From: Gluconobacter cerevisiae
GTDB lineage: Bacteria; Pseudomonadota; Alphaproteobacteria; Acetobacterales; Acetobacteraceae
DNA length: 64,000 nucleotides
Direction: 5' to 3'
Assembly (NCBI RefSeq): GCF_015244675.1
Contig: NZ_JABCQO010000005.1
Coordinates: 62,001-126,000, forward strand
A program made the translations under genes and the position numbers. The notes beneath the pieces were generated by a model. It was given only the letters and a program-made list of their open reading frames with translations. It was not told where the DNA came from and did no database searches. Numbering within the stretch: position 1 is the first letter of the stretch; each line of letters begins with the position of its first letter. Of this stretch, positions 23,006 through 29,667 are shown one piece after another.

Positions 23006-23821
23006 TCAGGGCGCTTTTGCTAACCCCTTCTCTCCCGTCTGCCTAGCCTCCACCTGTCGGCTGGCGCTTTCCTGTTGCCGCAGGGCCTCAGCCTGACGCG
23101 AATGCCCTGCTGCTTCGGCTGCGTCAGCCGCCAGAATGAGCGCACGGCGCATTCCGCGATAATCCAGAGCATCACGACGGCTTTTCACAACCGAAAGTGC
23201 TTCGTCACAGGCCAGTTCAGGCTGGCCGCGCAACAGGTTCAGACGGGCCGCGAGCTCATGCCGATCGACAGTTGCACTGTTATCACCAAAAGCCGCCAGA
23301 TCGTTCACGCGCTGCGTCAGAAGATCGCCCCGCTTCTGGTCAGCGGCAATCAGCCCGGAGAGAAAAAGCGCTCTTTCGCGGATGCCCTCATCCGAGGATT
23401 GCAACGCGCGTTGCACGGCCTGTGACGCAAACACCGTATCATGTAACCTGTACAGAGCAGCCGCACGGATCACTGCCAGATCGGACGTGTCGGAGACATT
23501 ACGCAGGCTCAGCGCAGTTTCCGTTTCGCCAAGGCTCTGAAGGGCTTTTTGTGGCTCGTCCTGCGCGAGAAGCACTGTAGCGAGATTGAAACCGGATTCA
23601 TGAATAGCGACCGCATCGTCCCGCATCAGCGCACGATCCATAGCCGTCCGGTACTGCGCCTCGGCCTGAGACGCCTGACCGATCTCATAGACGGTTTTGC
23701 CCGTATCCATGGCGTCTTCGTAAGGCTGATCGGGCTTTGGCCCCTTCGTTGGGGTTGAAGACGAACAACCGCTCAAAGTCAGAGCGATCAGAGCCGTGCA
23801 GACCAGAAAACCGTGCCTCAT
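23006..23821 (-). CDS. Helical-repeat (TPR-like) lipoprotein of the Mla-type operon
   Basis: A 271-residue lipoprotein: signal CTALIALTLSGC with lipobox LSGC (Cys about residue 19). The mature part is alpha-helical, with TPR-like pairs such as ASQAEAQYRTAMDRALM, ESGFNLATVLLAQDEPQKAL and ERALFLSGLIAADQKRGDLL. A longer frame to 23890 exists. ATG at 23821 is chosen because it overlaps the mlaD stop by 4 bp (ATGA), places the lipobox correctly and ends the overlapping operon. Mla/MCE systems often carry an auxiliary lipoprotein that binds the MCE ring or hands lipid to the outer membrane. This one does not resemble MlaA or YrbC-type MlaC, so its role is inferred from position. Confidence 0.7.
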   Translation of the reverse strand: MRHGFLVCTALIALTLSGCSSSTPTKGPKPDQPYEDAMDTGKTVYEIGQASQAEAQYRTAMDRALMRDDAVAIHESGFNLATVLLAQDEPQKALQSLGETETALSLRNVSDTSDLAVIRAAALYRLHDTVFASQAVQRALQSSDEGIRERALFLSGLIAADQKRGDLLTQRVNDLAAFGDNSATVDRHELAARLNLLRGQPELACDEALSVVKSRRDALDYRGMRRALILAADAAEAAGHSRQAEALRQQESASRQVEARQTGEKGLAKAP

Positions 23822-24774
23822 GGCCGCACCGCCTGCGCCGGAAGACGACGGGAAGGCTCCTGTTTTGCACCTCCGCCTCCCAGCAGCCACAGGCCCCGGA
23901 GCTGATCGGTCAGCTTGCGCAGACTGCTCGCGCTCGCTTCCGCCTGCGCCAGCAGGGCCGGAAGCTGGGCCGTGGCGGTATTGGCATGGCTGATGGTTTG
24001 CTGGATCTGGGGCATGCTCTGACGCAGACCCGCAGTCGCGGCCCGCGCGTTGTCCATCGTTCCGTCAGCCTTGGTCATGACCCCCCCGACCTGTTTTTCA
24101 ATGGGCCTCAGATCCGCAATGACGGCATCAAGATGCGCCAGAGCCGCATTGGCCTTGTCCAGAACATCATCCTTCACCAGCAGACCGCCGATCGTGCCCT
24201 GCCCTTTGCGCATATCAGTCATCATGTCGTTCACCTGCGCCGTAATGAGCTGGACGTTGTTCATCGCCGGCACCAGCTTGGCGCGCAGATCCATAACGGT
24301 CTGAGTAATCACGTCCGCCGGGTTGGCTTCCACCGTCGCCTGAAGGACCGCATAGTCCCAGTCCAGCGGTTTGCCCTTGCCGCGCCCCAGTTCGATATAA
24401 CTCGCGCCAGCCACGATCAGGCGATGGCGAATGACGGCCGTGCTGTCCTGACGGATGAAGTTTGCGAATTGCGGGTCCAGATCCCCTTCCGCATACATCC
24501 TCCCCGTCTCGTTAAGTTTGAGGCGACGGATTTCACCGGCATGGACGCCCATGACTTCTATATCGTTGCCGATCGCAAGCCCCGCCACACCGCTTTCGGG
24601 CAGAATGAAGTGAATCTTCTTTTCAGGCGTCAGCCACTGACGCAGGAACCCAGCTTCCACGACTGCCACCGCGAACATGACGATCGCAGCAAGGACAAGC
24701 AGCCCGACCCATTCATCCGCATAGCGGTTCTGAAAGAGCGGACGGGCAGTCTCGGTCTGGCGTAGGCGAAACAT
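23818..24774 (-). CDS. MCE (MlaD-like) protein
   Basis: A 318-residue inner-membrane-anchored protein: membrane segment at about 24-44, then an MCE domain (ESGVAGLAIGNDIEVMGVHAGEIRRLKL, about 60-87, and IVAGASYIELGRG), followed by about 180 residues of helices, with coiled-coil-like segments NAALAHLDAVIADLRPI and TATAQLPALLAQAEASA. MCE proteins form hexameric rings that shuttle phospholipid between membranes, powered by the MlaE permease and MlaF ATPase encoded just upstream. A tail of this length is between short MlaD and tunnel-forming YebT types. Overlaps its neighbours on both sides by 1 and 4 bp. Confidence 0.88.
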   Translation of the reverse strand: MFRLRQTETARPLFQNRYADEWVGLLVLAAIVMFAVAVVEAGFLRQWLTPEKKIHFILPESGVAGLAIGNDIEVMGVHAGEIRRLKLNETGRMYAEGDLDPQFANFIRQDSTAVIRHRLIVAGASYIELGRGKGKPLDWDYAVLQATVEANPADVITQTVMDLRAKLVPAMNNVQLITAQVNDMMTDMRKGQGTIGGLLVKDDVLDKANAALAHLDAVIADLRPIEKQVGGVMTKADGTMDNARAATAGLRQSMPQIQQTISHANTATAQLPALLAQAEASASSLRKLTDQLRGLWLLGGGGAKQEPSRRLPAQAVRP

Positions 24775-25496
24775 CAGGAACCTCGCATCGAAAACAGTCC
24801 ATCATCATACAGTCTCAGACGAATGGTGGCATCGGACGCATAATCCCCCCATCCGCTTTCATCCGGAGCCATCCACACCACCGCGCAACCTCGATCCCGC
24901 AGATCGGTCACGAGAGACAGGAACGCATTCATCAGGCTGGCCGAAGCGCCTTCCATCGGGTGCTCCAGAAGCAGAAGCGCGGGCTCCCCCAACATGGCCC
25001 GTACACAGGCCGCGCGCTGCCGGTCCATCGCCGACAGGCGCCCCGGAGGCACCACGGGCAAGCCCGGCAGGCCCAGCATAACGGCCAGATGCACGGCCTG
25101 TGACTGAAGTTTTTCAATCGGAGTGCGTGTATGGTGAAGCTGTGGCCACAGGATGTTCATATGCGTCCCATACAGATCCACCCAGCCTCCCGTGACCACG
25201 ATCCGCCCGATCCGGCCCCGCAAGGCATTACTGCGCCGTTCGTCCAGATCGGCCCAGTCCAGCCCCATGCAACGCACATGTCCGTCATCCAACGGAATAA
25301 GGCCCACACACATATCGGCAAACAGCCCCGCCTGCCCCATGTCTCGACACTCGATCAGCGCACATTCGCCGGGATTAAGCCGCAGGTTGTAGCGGCTCGA
25401 TACCAGTCCGCTTTCATCAAAACGGGGACGTGCATCCACGAGTTCGAGCCGGGCTTCCAGCGCATCGGACAGGACGTCATCGTTTTCAGCCATCAA
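24774..25496 (-). CDS. Degenerate MlaF-like ABC ATPase (pseudo-ATPase)
   Basis: A 240-residue protein with the overall architecture of an ABC nucleotide-binding subunit: NLRLNPGECALIE (strand before Walker A), DDGHVRCMGLDWADL, LRGRIGRIV, RLSAMDRQRAACVRAML (signature helix, residues 153-169), EPALLLLEHPMEG (Walker B position, 171-183). Yet Walker A, expected near 50-57, reads CRDMGQAG, without GxxGxGKS/T. Walker B has EH in place of DE. The Q-loop Gln and H-loop His positions appear to be T and P. So it should not hydrolyse ATP in the normal way. It sits where mlaF is expected, between MlaE and MlaD, with overlapping starts and stops. The frame is intact, arguing against a simple pseudogene. 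Confidence 0.8.
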   Translation of the reverse strand: MMAENDDVLSDALEARLELVDARPRFDESGLVSSRYNLRLNPGECALIECRDMGQAGLFADMCVGLIPLDDGHVRCMGLDWADLDERRSNALRGRIGRIVVTGGWVDLYGTHMNILWPQLHHTRTPIEKLQSQAVHLAVMLGLPGLPVVPPGRLSAMDRQRAACVRAMLGEPALLLLEHPMEGASASLMNAFLSLVTDLRDRGCAVVWMAPDESGWGDYASDATIRLRLYDDGLFSMRGS

Positions 25497-26310
25497 AACA
25501 CACGCTGAACACGACGTTGATGATCATGATCGACAGCATTCCTCGTGCAAACCCGCGTGGAAGCATGCTCGCCAGATCGTCTTCGGTCGTCACATCCATG
25601 CCGGACAGGCAGGAACACACACCAACCGCATAACCGCTGAAAATGAATTTGGCCGGAATTACAAAATAATCGATTGGCTTCACGCTGCCTGCAACCTGAT
25701 CCATGAATGCCCAGATCGGCATCGTGATCGCATCTTCCACACGGCAGACCGCATAACCCACGACAAGGGCCGCCAGACTGAAAATGATGCCGAGCGTAAA
25801 GCCGCTGATCGTCATGGCGAGGCTGCGCGGCACCAGAAACGAAATGAACGGATCGACCCCCATTCCCGTCAAGGCACGCATTTGGCCGCCCGTTGTCAGG
25901 GTTCCGAGTTCGGTCAGCATCAGCATCCCCGAACGCCCCAGCAGGATTACACCCACCAGAACCGGCGCGATTTCACGCACCAGAACCGTGGACAGGATGG
26001 AGCCTGTCATCTGCGCCATGCCGGCAAAACCGAGCCAGTACACGGTCTGCGCCACGATGCCAAAGCCCGTTAACGCCGCCGTCACGAGCGTACTCAGCAA
26101 CCCACCGCCGACAGCCTGATGCAGAGACGTCCAGAATTCGATCCGTACTGTCCGGCGCCATGTGGTCAGCCGGGTGGCTTCCCGCATAATGCCCCATCCG
26201 GCCCCGATCATCAGCAGCGTGAAACGCATCTGCGTTCGGGAAAAATATCCCAGATGAACCAGCATGGTCCGGACCATCGTGATCCGGTCGAGATTGCGCA
26301 GCCCTTTCAT
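25486..26310 (-). CDS. MlaE-family ABC transporter permease
   Basis: A 274-residue integral membrane protein of the MlaE/YrbE family: SLHQAVGGGLLSTLVTAALTGFGIV, LVREIAPVLVGVILLGRSGMLMLTELGTL, VDPFISFLVPRSLAMTISGFTLGI and the C-terminal FSGYAVGVCSCLSGMDVTTEDDLASMLPRG. About five or six hydrophobic segments are present. The EIAPVL and E-L-G-T coupling-helix motifs are conserved, as in functional permeases. In MlaFEDB it spans the inner membrane and holds the MlaD ring. Its start overlaps the sensor gene stop by 4 bp, and its stop overlaps the ATPase-like gene. The partner ATPase here looks inactive, which makes the energy source an open question. Confidence 0.92.
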   Translation of the reverse strand: MKGLRNLDRITMVRTMLVHLGYFSRTQMRFTLLMIGAGWGIMREATRLTTWRRTVRIEFWTSLHQAVGGGLLSTLVTAALTGFGIVAQTVYWLGFAGMAQMTGSILSTVLVREIAPVLVGVILLGRSGMLMLTELGTLTTGGQMRALTGMGVDPFISFLVPRSLAMTISGFTLGIIFSLAALVVGYAVCRVEDAITMPIWAFMDQVAGSVKPIDYFVIPAKFIFSGYAVGVCSCLSGMDVTTEDDLASMLPRGFARGMLSIMIINVVFSVCFDG

Positions 26311-28667
26311 CGACGACCCGCCAGAACGAAGCTGCGTGTAATGCCGCTATTGGGAAGATAGAACATCCCCCGTGCCCGAAAGAGGAAATGCTCTCGCAGG
26401 ATCAGATAGGCCTGCTCGGAGACCTGAATCGTCCCCGCATCAGGTGCACTGCCGGTCAACAGTTCAGCTCCGTTGAGCGCATCGCCCCAAATATTGAAGA
26501 CTGAAGGCGCCTCTCCGAGTTCGGACGCCATGACAGACCCCACATCCATCCCGATCCGGAACACGGGGTCCAGATCTGCTGCCGCCAGCGATGACAGACA
26601 GGCTTCACGGATCGACACCGCCGCATCCGCGAGACGCACAGCAGCAGACGGGTCCGGCGTCTGGGAGCAGCCACCAACGAGAACAAGTCTGTTGCTCACC
26701 ACCTGTACGGAGAACAGCCCACTGTCACGTGCGATTTTCTGGATTTCCAGGCTGAGCGTGCGGATGACGGTCATGGCGCGCGCGATGCTGTCGCGATCCG
26801 GCGCATAAGGATCCACGAAGGAAATGACCATGACCGGAACCTGCGGATAGAACCCCGCCGCAACCGGTTCTCCCACTGTGGGCGATGGTTCCAGCAAAAA
26901 GCCTTCACCAAAGCGCGTCTCATATTTTTCGCCCGGAACCGCAAAGCCGGACGTCCCCTCGGCCGCCGCATCGAACGGCTTTGCAAAACGCAGCGCAACG
27001 ACGGACCCGACAATGGCAATGATATGCTCCATCGTCTCCGGCTGCCCCGGATCTTCCAGCACGATGGCGCCGACCGTGCGGTGTGCATTACGGACTGGCT
27101 GGAACAGCAGCGTACTGGTGCCCGCGGCACGCATGATGACGCGCTGGAAATTCTGCGTCCGCTCATCCTGAGAAGCATCCGCGATCGACAGCGTATGCCC
27201 TTCATCCAGAGCCTCGAACAGCTTGCCGTTTTCGCGACGGCTGATCTCAACGCCCGTACTATGAACATCACGCGATGGATCGAACGCATCCTCACACAGC
27301 AGACGGTCACCATCCGGCAGGAGCCGCCACAAGCTGGCGCGACGCGCGCTGGTTCGTGCTGTCAGAACTTCCGTCAGGATCGGCGCTTCATGAGCAGGAT
27401 CGAACAGATCCGGCGTGCTGGCGATTTCCAGAAGCGAGGCATTTTCCGCCCTGACCTGCTCGCGCCCACGCAGGAGGCGCTTTCGCAGACGTTCTACATG
27501 CCTCCCCTGCGCCACCAGCGCGAACGCCAGAAGGGACGCCAGCATGACGATCAGCAGTGAGAACCCAATATTCTGGCGCCGCGCCGTTTGTGCGAAATCT
27601 GCAAAATCGCTTTCGGGCGCATTCAGCAGCAGAACCCACTGCCGATGTACGAAAGGCAGTTCGGAGGCAATCGTGACGTAGTTCTTCCCGTGAGCCCGCA
27701 CCGCACCCGTTCCCGGTCCCTCGATGCGATACCGGTTGAGGGCCTGCGTGAAGACCGGCTGCGTCTTGGGATCGAGGAAGACATTCCCCGGGTCGAAGGT
27801 TTTAGGGTCCTGTCCGGGGGCCATATTATGGCCAGCAATAATCTGGCCGTGCATGTTGACAATCACGGCCTGACCGCTGCGTCCGACCTGAAGTTTGTTG
27901 AGAAACGACGTCAGCTGATTCAGCGAAACATTGATCGCAAAAACCGATTTGTGCCCGTCATGCCCATCATAGGCGAGAGACGCTGTGATGATGAACTGAT
28001 GCGTGGAAACGAAGGCATAAGGGTCGGTCCAGTGGAGCTGGCGGCCCGGATCGTTCTGATGTTTGACGGCTTTGGCGAACCACGGACGTACCACAACATT
28101 GTAGCCATCAGCGGGGTCCGCGGCCTCTCCCGTAATATTCCCCTCATGATCCGTATAGACGTGATGATAGACCTGTTTGCCGTCGTCGGTCTGGAAATGG
28201 GTCTGCTCGAAACCGTCCTTTCCATGTCGCGTGATCATCCAGAACTGGCCCTGATCATTCGCAATATAGAAACTGTCCACCTGAGGCGCATGGGCCAGAA
28301 TGGAGCGTCCGTAGAGCATGAACGTGGCGGGGGTGGCGTTGGTCAACGGATCGCGGAACATGTCCCTCGCGATCATGGCGCCGACAGAGGCCGGGGCCAG
28401 ATAGTCGCTCACTTCCTGCGTCACATAGCGCTGCTGGCTGCGCAGGAGATCGTTGGACAGCGCAATCGCGCCTCTGCGCGTCGTCTGGTAATTGTGAAGA
28501 CTGATGCCCGTGATCGCGGCAATAACCAACAGAACGCCCACGAACGGTCCCAGGATCTGAAAGATCCGGCGACGGTCGCTGGCGGGGCTCTGCGTAGGGT
28601 CCACGATCTCTGCGGCTGACAACGTCTTCTCTCTCCGGACAGGCACGGGGTCGCGGAACAGGGCCAT
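26307..28667 (-). CDS. Membrane sensor with dCache, GAF and cyclase-fold domains
   Basis: A 786-residue protein: membrane helix about 37-58, periplasmic double-Cache-type sensor about 60-365 (DSFYIANDQGQFWMIT, DGYNVVVRPWFAKAV, DPYAFVSTHQFIITAS), second helix about 367-388, a GAF-like region about 420-570, then a class III cyclase fold about 605-786. In the cyclase part the first metal Asp (SFVDP, about 619) and GDALN are kept. The second metal Asp aligns with Asn (VSNRL, about 659), the purine-binding Lys is absent, and the catalytic Arg position is Glu (GAELL, about 735). It may be a pseudo-cyclase or bind another ligand. First gene of the Mla-like operon, overlapping mlaE by 4 bp. The start is uncertain; upstream frame extends to 28859. 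Confidence 0.78.
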   Translation of the reverse strand: MALFRDPVPVRREKTLSAAEIVDPTQSPASDRRRIFQILGPFVGVLLVIAAITGISLHNYQTTRRGAIALSNDLLRSQQRYVTQEVSDYLAPASVGAMIARDMFRDPLTNATPATFMLYGRSILAHAPQVDSFYIANDQGQFWMITRHGKDGFEQTHFQTDDGKQVYHHVYTDHEGNITGEAADPADGYNVVVRPWFAKAVKHQNDPGRQLHWTDPYAFVSTHQFIITASLAYDGHDGHKSVFAINVSLNQLTSFLNKLQVGRSGQAVIVNMHGQIIAGHNMAPGQDPKTFDPGNVFLDPKTQPVFTQALNRYRIEGPGTGAVRAHGKNYVTIASELPFVHRQWVLLLNAPESDFADFAQTARRQNIGFSLLIVMLASLLAFALVAQGRHVERLRKRLLRGREQVRAENASLLEIASTPDLFDPAHEAPILTEVLTARTSARRASLWRLLPDGDRLLCEDAFDPSRDVHSTGVEISRRENGKLFEALDEGHTLSIADASQDERTQNFQRVIMRAAGTSTLLFQPVRNAHRTVGAIVLEDPGQPETMEHIIAIVGSVVALRFAKPFDAAAEGTSGFAVPGEKYETRFGEGFLLEPSPTVGEPVAAGFYPQVPVMVISFVDPYAPDRDSIARAMTVIRTLSLEIQKIARDSGLFSVQVVSNRLVLVGGCSQTPDPSAAVRLADAAVSIREACLSSLAAADLDPVFRIGMDVGSVMASELGEAPSVFNIWGDALNGAELLTGSAPDAGTIQVSEQAYLILREHFLFRARGMFYLPNSGITRSFVLAGRR

Positions 28668-28857
28668 ACTGCCGCGGTAGGTTAATATCCTCCGAGTATT
28701 GCGAGACTGCAACCCGCCGTCACGGACTGAAACAACCCTGCGTCCGAAAATACTCTCAACGTTCCCGAACTGGCGGTCTGCAGGGTTCGTCGTTATGGTC
28801 AGACGTTTTTCCGGCAGGATGGTTTTGCTGGACGCTGTCGGAATTGCGGTCTCTCCC

Positions 28858-29667
28858 ATGAATCAACATCTTTCCCACCGCGCCGTCCTCTCATTCACAG
28901 GCGCGGACCGGACCAGCTTTCTTCAGGGCCTCATCACCAATGACGCTCAGGGCCTCACGTCCGCGACCTCTGTGTGGAGCGCGCTTTTGACGCCGCAGGG
29001 CCGCTGGCTGAGCGAATTTTTCCTGTATGACGTATCCGACCGCATCCTGATGGATTGCGCGGCCGACCATGCCGACATGCTGGTCAAACGCCTCTCCCGC
29101 TTCCGCCTTCGTGCAGATGTACAGATCGAAAAAACGGACCTGCGCGTCATCACTGGCGCAGAGAGCGGACCTGTTCCGCCCGATACGATCACACATGCCC
29201 CGGACCCACGCTGCGATGGCCCGGGCTGGCGGGCCATCGTGACCGGAACCGAGCAAGGTGGTGAAACGCCGGAAGAATTTCTGGAACGCCGCCTCACGCT
29301 AGGCCTGCCAGATGTCATGGATTTCGAAAGCGAGCAGACACTAGCGCTTGAAGCCGACATGGACCTGTTGCACGGCGTCTCATGGAAAAAAGGCTGCTAT
29401 ATGGGGCAGGAACTGACAGCCCGCACCCATTACCGCGGCCTTGTCAAACGCCGCCTCCTGCCCGTTGTGCTGTCTGACGAGACGTTTCCCGATGAAGGCG
29501 GCATCATCGTAGCGGGAGACCGCGAGGTTGGAGACATCCGCTCCCGCAGCGGTAACCGCGCCATCGCCATGCTGCGGCGGGACGCCTGGTCTTCCCCCGA
29601 ACTGACCTGCAACGGGCAACCGCTTTCTGTCGTCTGGCCCGCTTGGTTCCCCCCGGAAATGCGTTGA
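28858..29667 (+). CDS. ygfZ: YgfZ/GcvT-family folate-binding protein
   Basis: A 269-residue tetrahydrofolate-binding protein involved in repair or maturation of iron-sulfur enzymes. It starts MNQHLSHRAVLSFTGADR, followed by FLQGLITND (the usual FLQGxxTND) and the signature KKGCYMGQELTARTHYRG with the conserved Cys. The frame is open from 28699, but ATG at 28858 gives the family-typical N-terminus; neither candidate has a strong ribosome-binding site. It is divergent from the sensor/Mla operon by 190 bp and is followed by hisI after 12 bp. Function in Fe-S protein upkeep is known from the family. Confidence 0.88.
   Translation: MNQHLSHRAVLSFTGADRTSFLQGLITNDAQGLTSATSVWSALLTPQGRWLSEFFLYDVSDRILMDCAADHADMLVKRLSRFRLRADVQIEKTDLRVITGAESGPVPPDTITHAPDPRCDGPGWRAIVTGTEQGGETPEEFLERRLTLGLPDVMDFESEQTLALEADMDLLHGVSWKKGCYMGQELTARTHYRGLVKRRLLPVVLSDETFPDEGGIIVAGDREVGDIRSRSGNRAIAMLRRDAWSSPELTCNGQPLSVVWPAWFPPEMR

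Follow-up and report, generated by a model that had tools for sequence, protein, structure and literature searches.

An MCE operon of Acetobacteraceae encodes a sensor with a degenerate cyclase domain and, in the MlaF position, an ABC ATPase homologue lacking the Walker A lysine

The window, the whole stretch of 64,000 nucleotides of Gluconobacter cerevisiae DNA that was analysed, carries on its minus strand five successive genes in the order Cache-GAF-cyclase-like sensor, MlaE-like permease, pseudo-MlaF, MCE protein and TPR lipoprotein. The genes and the sites within them that are discussed below are as follows.

26307..28859, minus strand: gene 1, sensor of the type TM-dCache-TM-GAF-class III cyclase-like (domains from Pfam, TM segments by eye)
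25486..26310, minus strand: gene 2, MlaE-family permease (Pfam MlaE, 5.3e-37), with the coupling helix TTGGQMRAL at residues 139-147
25876..25878, minus strand: codon of permease Arg145, where 36 of 38 canonical MlaE proteins carry Asp in the coupling helix
24774..25496, minus strand: gene 3, pseudo-MlaF, with a probable start at ATG 25493 and 239 aa
25326..25349, minus strand: degenerate Walker A CRDMGQAG of pseudo-MlaF, residues 49-56 (from alignment; GGSGSGKS in the genome's own canonical MlaF)
25314..25316, minus strand: codon of pseudo-MlaF Asp60, aligned with MlaF R52, which touches the MlaE coupling helix in E. coli (PMC7784689)
23818..24774, minus strand: gene 4, single-MCE-domain protein, MlaD/MpcD-like (Pfam MlaD, 1.7e-9)
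23006..23821, minus strand: gene 5, lipoprotein with a TPR-type helical solenoid (AF2 pLDDT 86.9; Foldseek)

Successive genes overlap by 4, 8, 1 and 4 bp, and their translation is thus likely to be coupled, as the original prediction had proposed for pseudo-MlaF and the MlaE and MlaD genes on its two sides. The TTG at 25496 is directly adjoined by the ATG at 25493, so that the pseudo-MlaF protein probably starts at the latter; its frame overlaps the MlaE frame by 11 bp, or by 8 bp when counted from ATG 25493, and shares 1 bp with the MlaD start. The 274-aa permease scores 127.9 bits against Pfam MlaE (PF02405), above the cut-off of 22.5. By eye, the 318-aa product of gene 4 has a TM segment at its N-terminus; its long C-terminal part weakly matches coiled-coil families, and residues 23-281 match NCBIfam Mtu_fam_mce at 1e-13, below the cut-off of that model. 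The best Foldseek matches of gene 5 are TPR proteins (best E 1.3e-4), and its Cys19 is invariant in 19 Gluconobacter sequences. The open reading frame of gene 1 has 850 aa with an uncertain start; from the in-frame ATG near 28667 the protein would have 786 aa, and a plus-strand frame begins at 28699. The orthologues of gene 1, whose start codons were set by script like those of the other genes, have 755-864 aa, two short ones aside.

In each of the 76 loci that were read, the genes detected share one strand and keep a constant order. A sensor gene was recognised in 73 of them, the exceptions being L121, L123 and L037, the last of which lies at a contig end; in L121 and L123 the permease, pseudo-MlaF, MCE and lipoprotein genes are found without a detectable sensor in more than 5 kb of upstream sequence. 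The lipoprotein was not detected in L056, L059 and L063-L065, and the intergenic gaps are larger in a minority of loci, such as L058 and L078 with about 990 bp. Over 69 loci, the pairwise distances of four operon proteins show correlations of 0.88-0.94, and the operon travels as a unit. Short permease frames occur in L078 and L089, together with a short sensor frame in L078 and with intact neighbours, reflecting either decay or assembly error. Elsewhere in the genome of the window, MCE domains are encoded at five loci (contigs C16, C3, C9, C5 and C14 of G000), the one on C9 having three MCE matches in one Pqi/Let-like frame of 562 aa.

By profile comparison, the product of 24774-25496 is an ABC ATPase homologue beyond chance. 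A 39-row profile of its protein family matches solved ABC ATPases with values down to 1.7e-18 (MacB), with LolD also matched and MlaF at 6e-16, and hhalign links the family to the genome's own MlaF at 97.5%. Pfam ABC_tran is matched at E<=0.01 by 20 of the 39 family members; the window protein alone gives E 0.19, below the cut-off. The NCBIfam MlaF equivalog scores 33.1 bits (E 3.4e-8) on pseudo-MlaF, short of its cut-off of 441 bits, and is outscored there by the FtsE (43.2) and DevA (37.2) models. Judged by its sequence, pseudo-MlaF is not closest to MlaF, and the MlaF role is assigned to it because its gene adjoins that of MlaE. An AF2 model of the protein built with 19 Gluconobacter sequences reached a pLDDT of 38 and was kept out of the fold searches. 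Proteins 97-98% identical to pseudo-MlaF are present in G. cadivus, G. kondonii and G. albidus.

Two canonical MlaFs are encoded elsewhere in the genome, with the Walker A motifs GGSGSGKS and GGSGCGKS, and pseudo-MlaF was aligned to its own genome's MlaF without a gap through Walker A. In this alignment GGSGSGKS is replaced by CRDMGQAG, the Q-loop Q by V, the signature LSGGM by LSAMD, the Walker B DE by EH and the H-loop H by P. The original prediction of an ABC ATPase-like protein in the MlaF position, with an intact frame and without the Walker A, Walker B, Q-loop and H-loop residues, is thus borne out by the open reading frame, the family profile, hhalign and this alignment. The same positions were counted in 75 distinct orthologues, with L067 left out. 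None of the 75 has GK[S/T] at Walker A and all 75 are devoid of the Walker A Lys, which is present in 35 of 35 canonical MlaFs by construction, since these were selected by a P-loop pattern. The Walker B Asp is Glu in 71/75 and is kept in 2/75, the catalytic place, where the window protein has His, is occupied by Glu in 9/75, the second Gly of the signature is kept in 3/75 and its fifth residue is Asp in 73/75, and the H-loop His is absent in 62/63. The Q-loop Gln is present in 18/75, and this motif is therefore not lost everywhere. The tail after the H-loop measures 29 residues (median 29 and maximum 45 in the set), whereas the genome's own MlaFs have 54-55, and on this alignment the MlaF-type C-terminal extension (~25 aa) is missing from pseudo-MlaF. 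Gly56 of the window protein, at the Walker A Ser position (25326-25328), corresponds to Ala or Ser in the closely related Gluconobacter proteins that were aligned.

Nine residues of pseudo-MlaF, D60, W80, R92, R97, W104, H121, G144, D157 and E177, are newly near-invariant (>=90%); at these positions 35 canonical MlaFs vary among themselves or carry another residue. Charged residues have thereby become fixed at the places of the old motifs (D157 in 73/75, E177 in 71/75), as would be the case if E177, D157, D60, H121 and R92 formed a new active site that binds or turns over a nucleotide or another ligand. The P-loop Lys is found in 0/75, and D60, R92 and H121 may just as well belong to an interface, so a new active site is regarded as quite improbable.

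The losses are old. Of 150 genomes of the family, 46 gave orthologues at E<=1.6e-22 in a protein search, the next matches lying at ~4e-13, and in genomes drawn from the order the 39-row profile gave a match at 7e-48 or better in 153 of 299, all of them Acetobacteraceae, with the next best at 1.2e-22; the weakest match counted, at 7e-48, is the decayed L067. Six genera are fully occupied, Gluconobacter with 24/24 genomes and the others with 36/36, 16/16, 12/12, 11/11 and 9/9, and these are presumably mainly acetic acid bacteria; in some other genera of the order draw the orthologue is sporadic. The class draw gave 6 of 385 genomes (4 Acetobacteraceae plus one from each of two further families) and the phylum draw 4 of 299 (3 Acetobacteraceae). 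Among Gluconobacter pairs with dS 0.05-1.5, the lowest median pairwise dN/dS belongs to the permease (0.036), followed by the MCE gene (0.046), the sensor (0.072), pseudo-MlaF (0.077) and the lipoprotein (0.136). The suggestion that the pseudo-MlaF gene is maintained under selection is upheld by its value, which also speaks against neutral evolution. A recently decaying pseudogene or a sequencing error would have in its favour a single locus, L067 in G126, where the operon has decayed; the frame is intact in the other 75 of the 76 loci read, and these 75 distinct orthologues, down to 32% identity, show the same losses, so that for this clade such an explanation is refuted and its probability negligible. 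Relatives with intact Walker motifs, which the original prediction had named as a sign of recent decay, number 0 of 75, and intermediates of the clade with an intact Walker A were likewise sought in these 75 sequences, where none occurs. The loss of the motifs is not recent decay; it is real, old and under selection.

At L067 (G126:C1:296500-309500) the operon is broken into short frames throughout, so that one lineage has lost the module naturally; G046 (L060), a genome from that genus, retains it. In one genus the pseudo-MlaF profile matches cross one TGA (G032, G118, G160, G165, G167, G181, G190, G193, G202 and G230).

In E. coli MlaFEDB, MlaE residues E127, Q128, S131, M135 and R142 contact MlaF residues R52, L96, R157, Y108 and E112, as described in PMC7784689. 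The corresponding positions were compared with those of canonical proteins; in the best-scoring 30 canonical loci, mostly of Mla type, patterns gave MlaE in 27 and an MlaF inside the 1.5-kb flanks in 26. The interface counts left out L067 and the short permeases of L037 and L089, and a 60-row permease comparison left out L037, L067, L078 and L089 (permease <236 aa). The R52 column is K/R in 33 of 35 canonical MlaFs (N in 2), and is D/E in 71 of 75 pseudo-MlaFs and never basic. On the permease side, the E127 column is E in 33/38 canonical MlaE proteins and Gly in 67/73 permeases of the pseudo-MlaF clade, and position 130, numbered by counting, is Asp in 36/38 and R/K in 64/73, respectively. The mean net charge of the coupling stretch is -1.00 in the 38 canonical proteins and +0.86 in the 73 clade permeases, which as a set do not show the acidic coupling helix of canonical MlaE. 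The R157-equivalent, another contact residue, is kept in 75/75 pseudo-MlaFs. In the aligned sequences, the coupling-helix charges are thus swapped on both partners around a known contact, and the permease, which the original prediction had taken as a normal-looking MlaE, stands as such by its Pfam match and departs from it in its coupling helix.

Opposite-sign changes on the two sides of an interface are what is expected of a contact that has been kept and re-specified, and the charge swap therefore suggests that pseudo-MlaF has probably retained its docking to the permease of its operon. The E127 contact of E. coli R52 (PMC7784689) is Gly here, and the swapped charge lies three residues further on; because position 130 is not among the contacts listed in that source, a new salt bridge is a guess. 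Co-variation between the two positions is not clear within the clade. Four loci have no acid at the MlaF site, 3 of them still with a basic permease residue, and 69 have the acid, 8 of them without a basic permease residue; in L121, the single locus with a permease Asp, pseudo-MlaF has Leu.

The same interface bears on whether the permease might be powered by one of the two intact canonical MlaFs found in the search for an active MlaF in the genome, with pseudo-MlaF as an assembly or regulatory subunit. Such borrowing would have to accommodate the loss of E127, the basic residue at position 130 and the acidic residue facing it, the short tail, the E. coli MlaF C-terminal extension being needed for function (PMC7367683), and the changed signature of the pseudo-subunit, because of which, by reasoning, a mixed dimer with canonical MlaF would be left without a complete site. 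A borrowed MlaF is considered very improbable and was rejected as the main reading on the charge swap. Of the three options originally offered for this protein, that of a borrowed ATPase is weakened by the charge swap and the lost C-terminal extension, and passive operation and a regulatory or assembly role remain.

The degenerate cyclase domain of the first gene and the altered MlaE were both missed by the original prediction, whose framing is right in part and deserves extension to the operon as a whole. Pfam places dCache_1 (3.8e-15), GAF (1.3e-6) and Guanylate_cyc (4.5e-11) in gene 1, and its residues ~665-850 share domain homology with class III adenylate cyclases (5o5k and others). Such cyclases possess a second metal Asp and a transition-state Arg, both of which are missing from nearly all of 61 sensor orthologues (L037, L067 and L078, with a missing or short sensor, were left out). 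Aligned to 5o5k, and with residue roles that we take to be those of active cyclases, the second metal Asp is absent in 60/61 and kept in 1/61, the transition-state Arg is absent in 57/61 and kept in 4/61, and the adenine-side Asp is Asn in 59/61; kept in part are the first metal Asp (42/61), the adenine-side Lys (13/61) and the Asn (19/61). The cyclase domain of gene 1 thus looks dead too, judging from these residues, and the operon pairs two pseudoenzymes. A role as partner of another cyclase was considered and is disfavoured, because gene 1 is the only class III cyclase match in the genome.

Since catalytic residues have been lost in both the motor and the signalling enzyme and the proteins are tightly conserved, the machine may have been rebuilt to work free of ATP. 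The reading put forward, to which about an even chance is given, is an ATP-independent, sensor-gated MCE lipid conduit. Genes 2-5 would form a complex, related to the Mpc and Mla ABC systems, that carries its putative lipid substrate from the inner to the outer membrane, and the NBD subunit would have turned into a non-hydrolysing pseudo-ATPase. Pseudo-MlaF would engage the MlaE-like permease by way of the usual coupling-helix groove, with the charges reversed, its Asp60 facing a permease Arg instead of a Lys/Arg facing an Asp/Glu, and would act as a dedicated clamp or gate and not as a motor. The periplasmic tube would consist of the MCE subunit with its helical tail; the TPR lipoprotein, for which the modelled solenoid makes a docking piece at the outer membrane plausible, would be the outer-membrane end of the conduit. 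The Cache-GAF-pseudocyclase would bind a periplasmic ligand and relay its state via the dead cyclase domain to pseudo-MlaF and the permease, replacing the STAS/MlaB unit and the ATP cycle in regulation, so that the conduit would be opened and closed by the sensor and lipid would move down its gradient or by a drive other than ATP. With both homodimer sites dead and a mixed dimer devoid of a complete site, a conduit with a pseudo-NBD gate or clamp appears the most economical arrangement. Against it stand the cyclase residues and Q-loop Gln that are kept in part, the two loci without a detected sensor (L121 and L123), and the fact that operon linkage is the one line of evidence for contact between sensor and transporter. 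E. coli Mla depends on ATP hydrolysis, as neither K47A nor E170Q complements (PMC7367683), and an MlaFE-type complex without ATP is for that reason not expected to transport.

The two apparently dead NTP-using domains and the sensor detected in 73/76 loci would also suit a sensor, signalling or tethering module, in which the MCE-permease-pseudo-NBD assembly is a receptor of lipid state without net lipid transport and the pseudo-cyclase/GAF part is a scaffold signalling to other proteins. No known output domain is seen in the five proteins, which counts against such a module, and the low dN/dS of the permease, MCE and lipoprotein genes (medians 0.036-0.136) fits it and the conduit alike; on balance it is held to be unlikely. 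Returning to the sensor-gated conduit, its extension to a whole class of ABC-type MCE transporters, in which a Cache-sensing pseudo-cyclase operates a pseudo-ATPase gate with swapped charges and flow is independent of ATP, is advanced tentatively, as something that may well prove wrong; in it two dead enzymes would be joined as one allosteric switch controlling envelope lipid flow. Keeping MlaE and MCE with the hydrolysis residues gone, the operon is seemingly a natural separation-of-function mutant in Gluconobacter, a tractable and harmless genus. It bears on the open questions of what moves lipids in MCE systems that have no ATPase, such as Pqi, and of what roles NBDs have beyond hydrolysis, and the charges swapped on both partners offer a clean test of coupling-helix specificity. 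Among the matches listed in the literature searched, by titles and abstract openings, no published description of the operon was found.

A permease tree built with 27 fuller canonical MlaE sequences, leaving out the long-branched L066, L124 and genome's own Mpc-type permease together with two short fragments, separates the pseudo, Mpc and Mla permeases into three groups (100/100, 97/91 and 100/99), with long branches and a warning from the tool. In an earlier tree that included two short MlaE fragments the canonical MlaE proteins did not group and the clade permeases did. By these trees, the clade permeases are a fully supported group of their own, apart from the Mpc- and Mla-type ones; which of the two lies nearer to them the tree does not say, and descent from Mpc as an established fact was dropped, since three separate groups do not support it. 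The reading of an ATP-independent conduit does not depend on such descent, and its likelihood is the same without it. The best-scoring outside matches of the permease are long permeases: among the best 7, STAS is above the Pfam cut-off in 6 and weak in 1, and a P-loop NBD adjoins in 7/7. The Mpc link is drawn from such match scores and from the layout, which suggest as a likely history that an Mpc-like ABC system acquired a sensor and was stripped of its STAS unit and of the ATPase residues.

PqiABC and LetAB are MCE systems too, and the operon keeps an ABC permease and an NBD homologue, PqiA and LetA not being known as MlaE homologues. PqiA has been described as 'devoid of an ATPase domain', so that an MCE system without such a domain exists (PMC12436622). 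With Mla MlaFEDB (7ch8, 6ic4, 6xbd and others) the operon shares MlaE, MCE and NBD homology and the kept R157-equivalent; in contrast, it has no ATP motifs, no MlaB gene and no MlaF C-terminal extension, and MlaD is much shorter than its MCE protein. The Mpc (Mla-Pqi chimeric) system MpcEFDA of Brucella is likewise an operon of an MlaE-type permease, an NBD, an MCE protein and a lipoprotein (PMC12436622). According to the same source, the Mpc permease has an N-terminal STAS domain and the Mpc MCE protein a long C-terminal needle, this protein having 331 aa compared with 318 here (PMC12436622). The length of the gene 4 product and its Mtu_fam_mce match would be compatible with such a needle. 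The 274-aa permease of the operon gives no STAS match, and where Mpc has a PqiC-like lipoprotein, the operon has a TPR solenoid without a match to PqiC-type families. The operon further differs from Mpc in its apparently dead NBD, its added sensor gene and its swapped coupling charges, and its permeases make up a third group that is not nested within that of Mpc.
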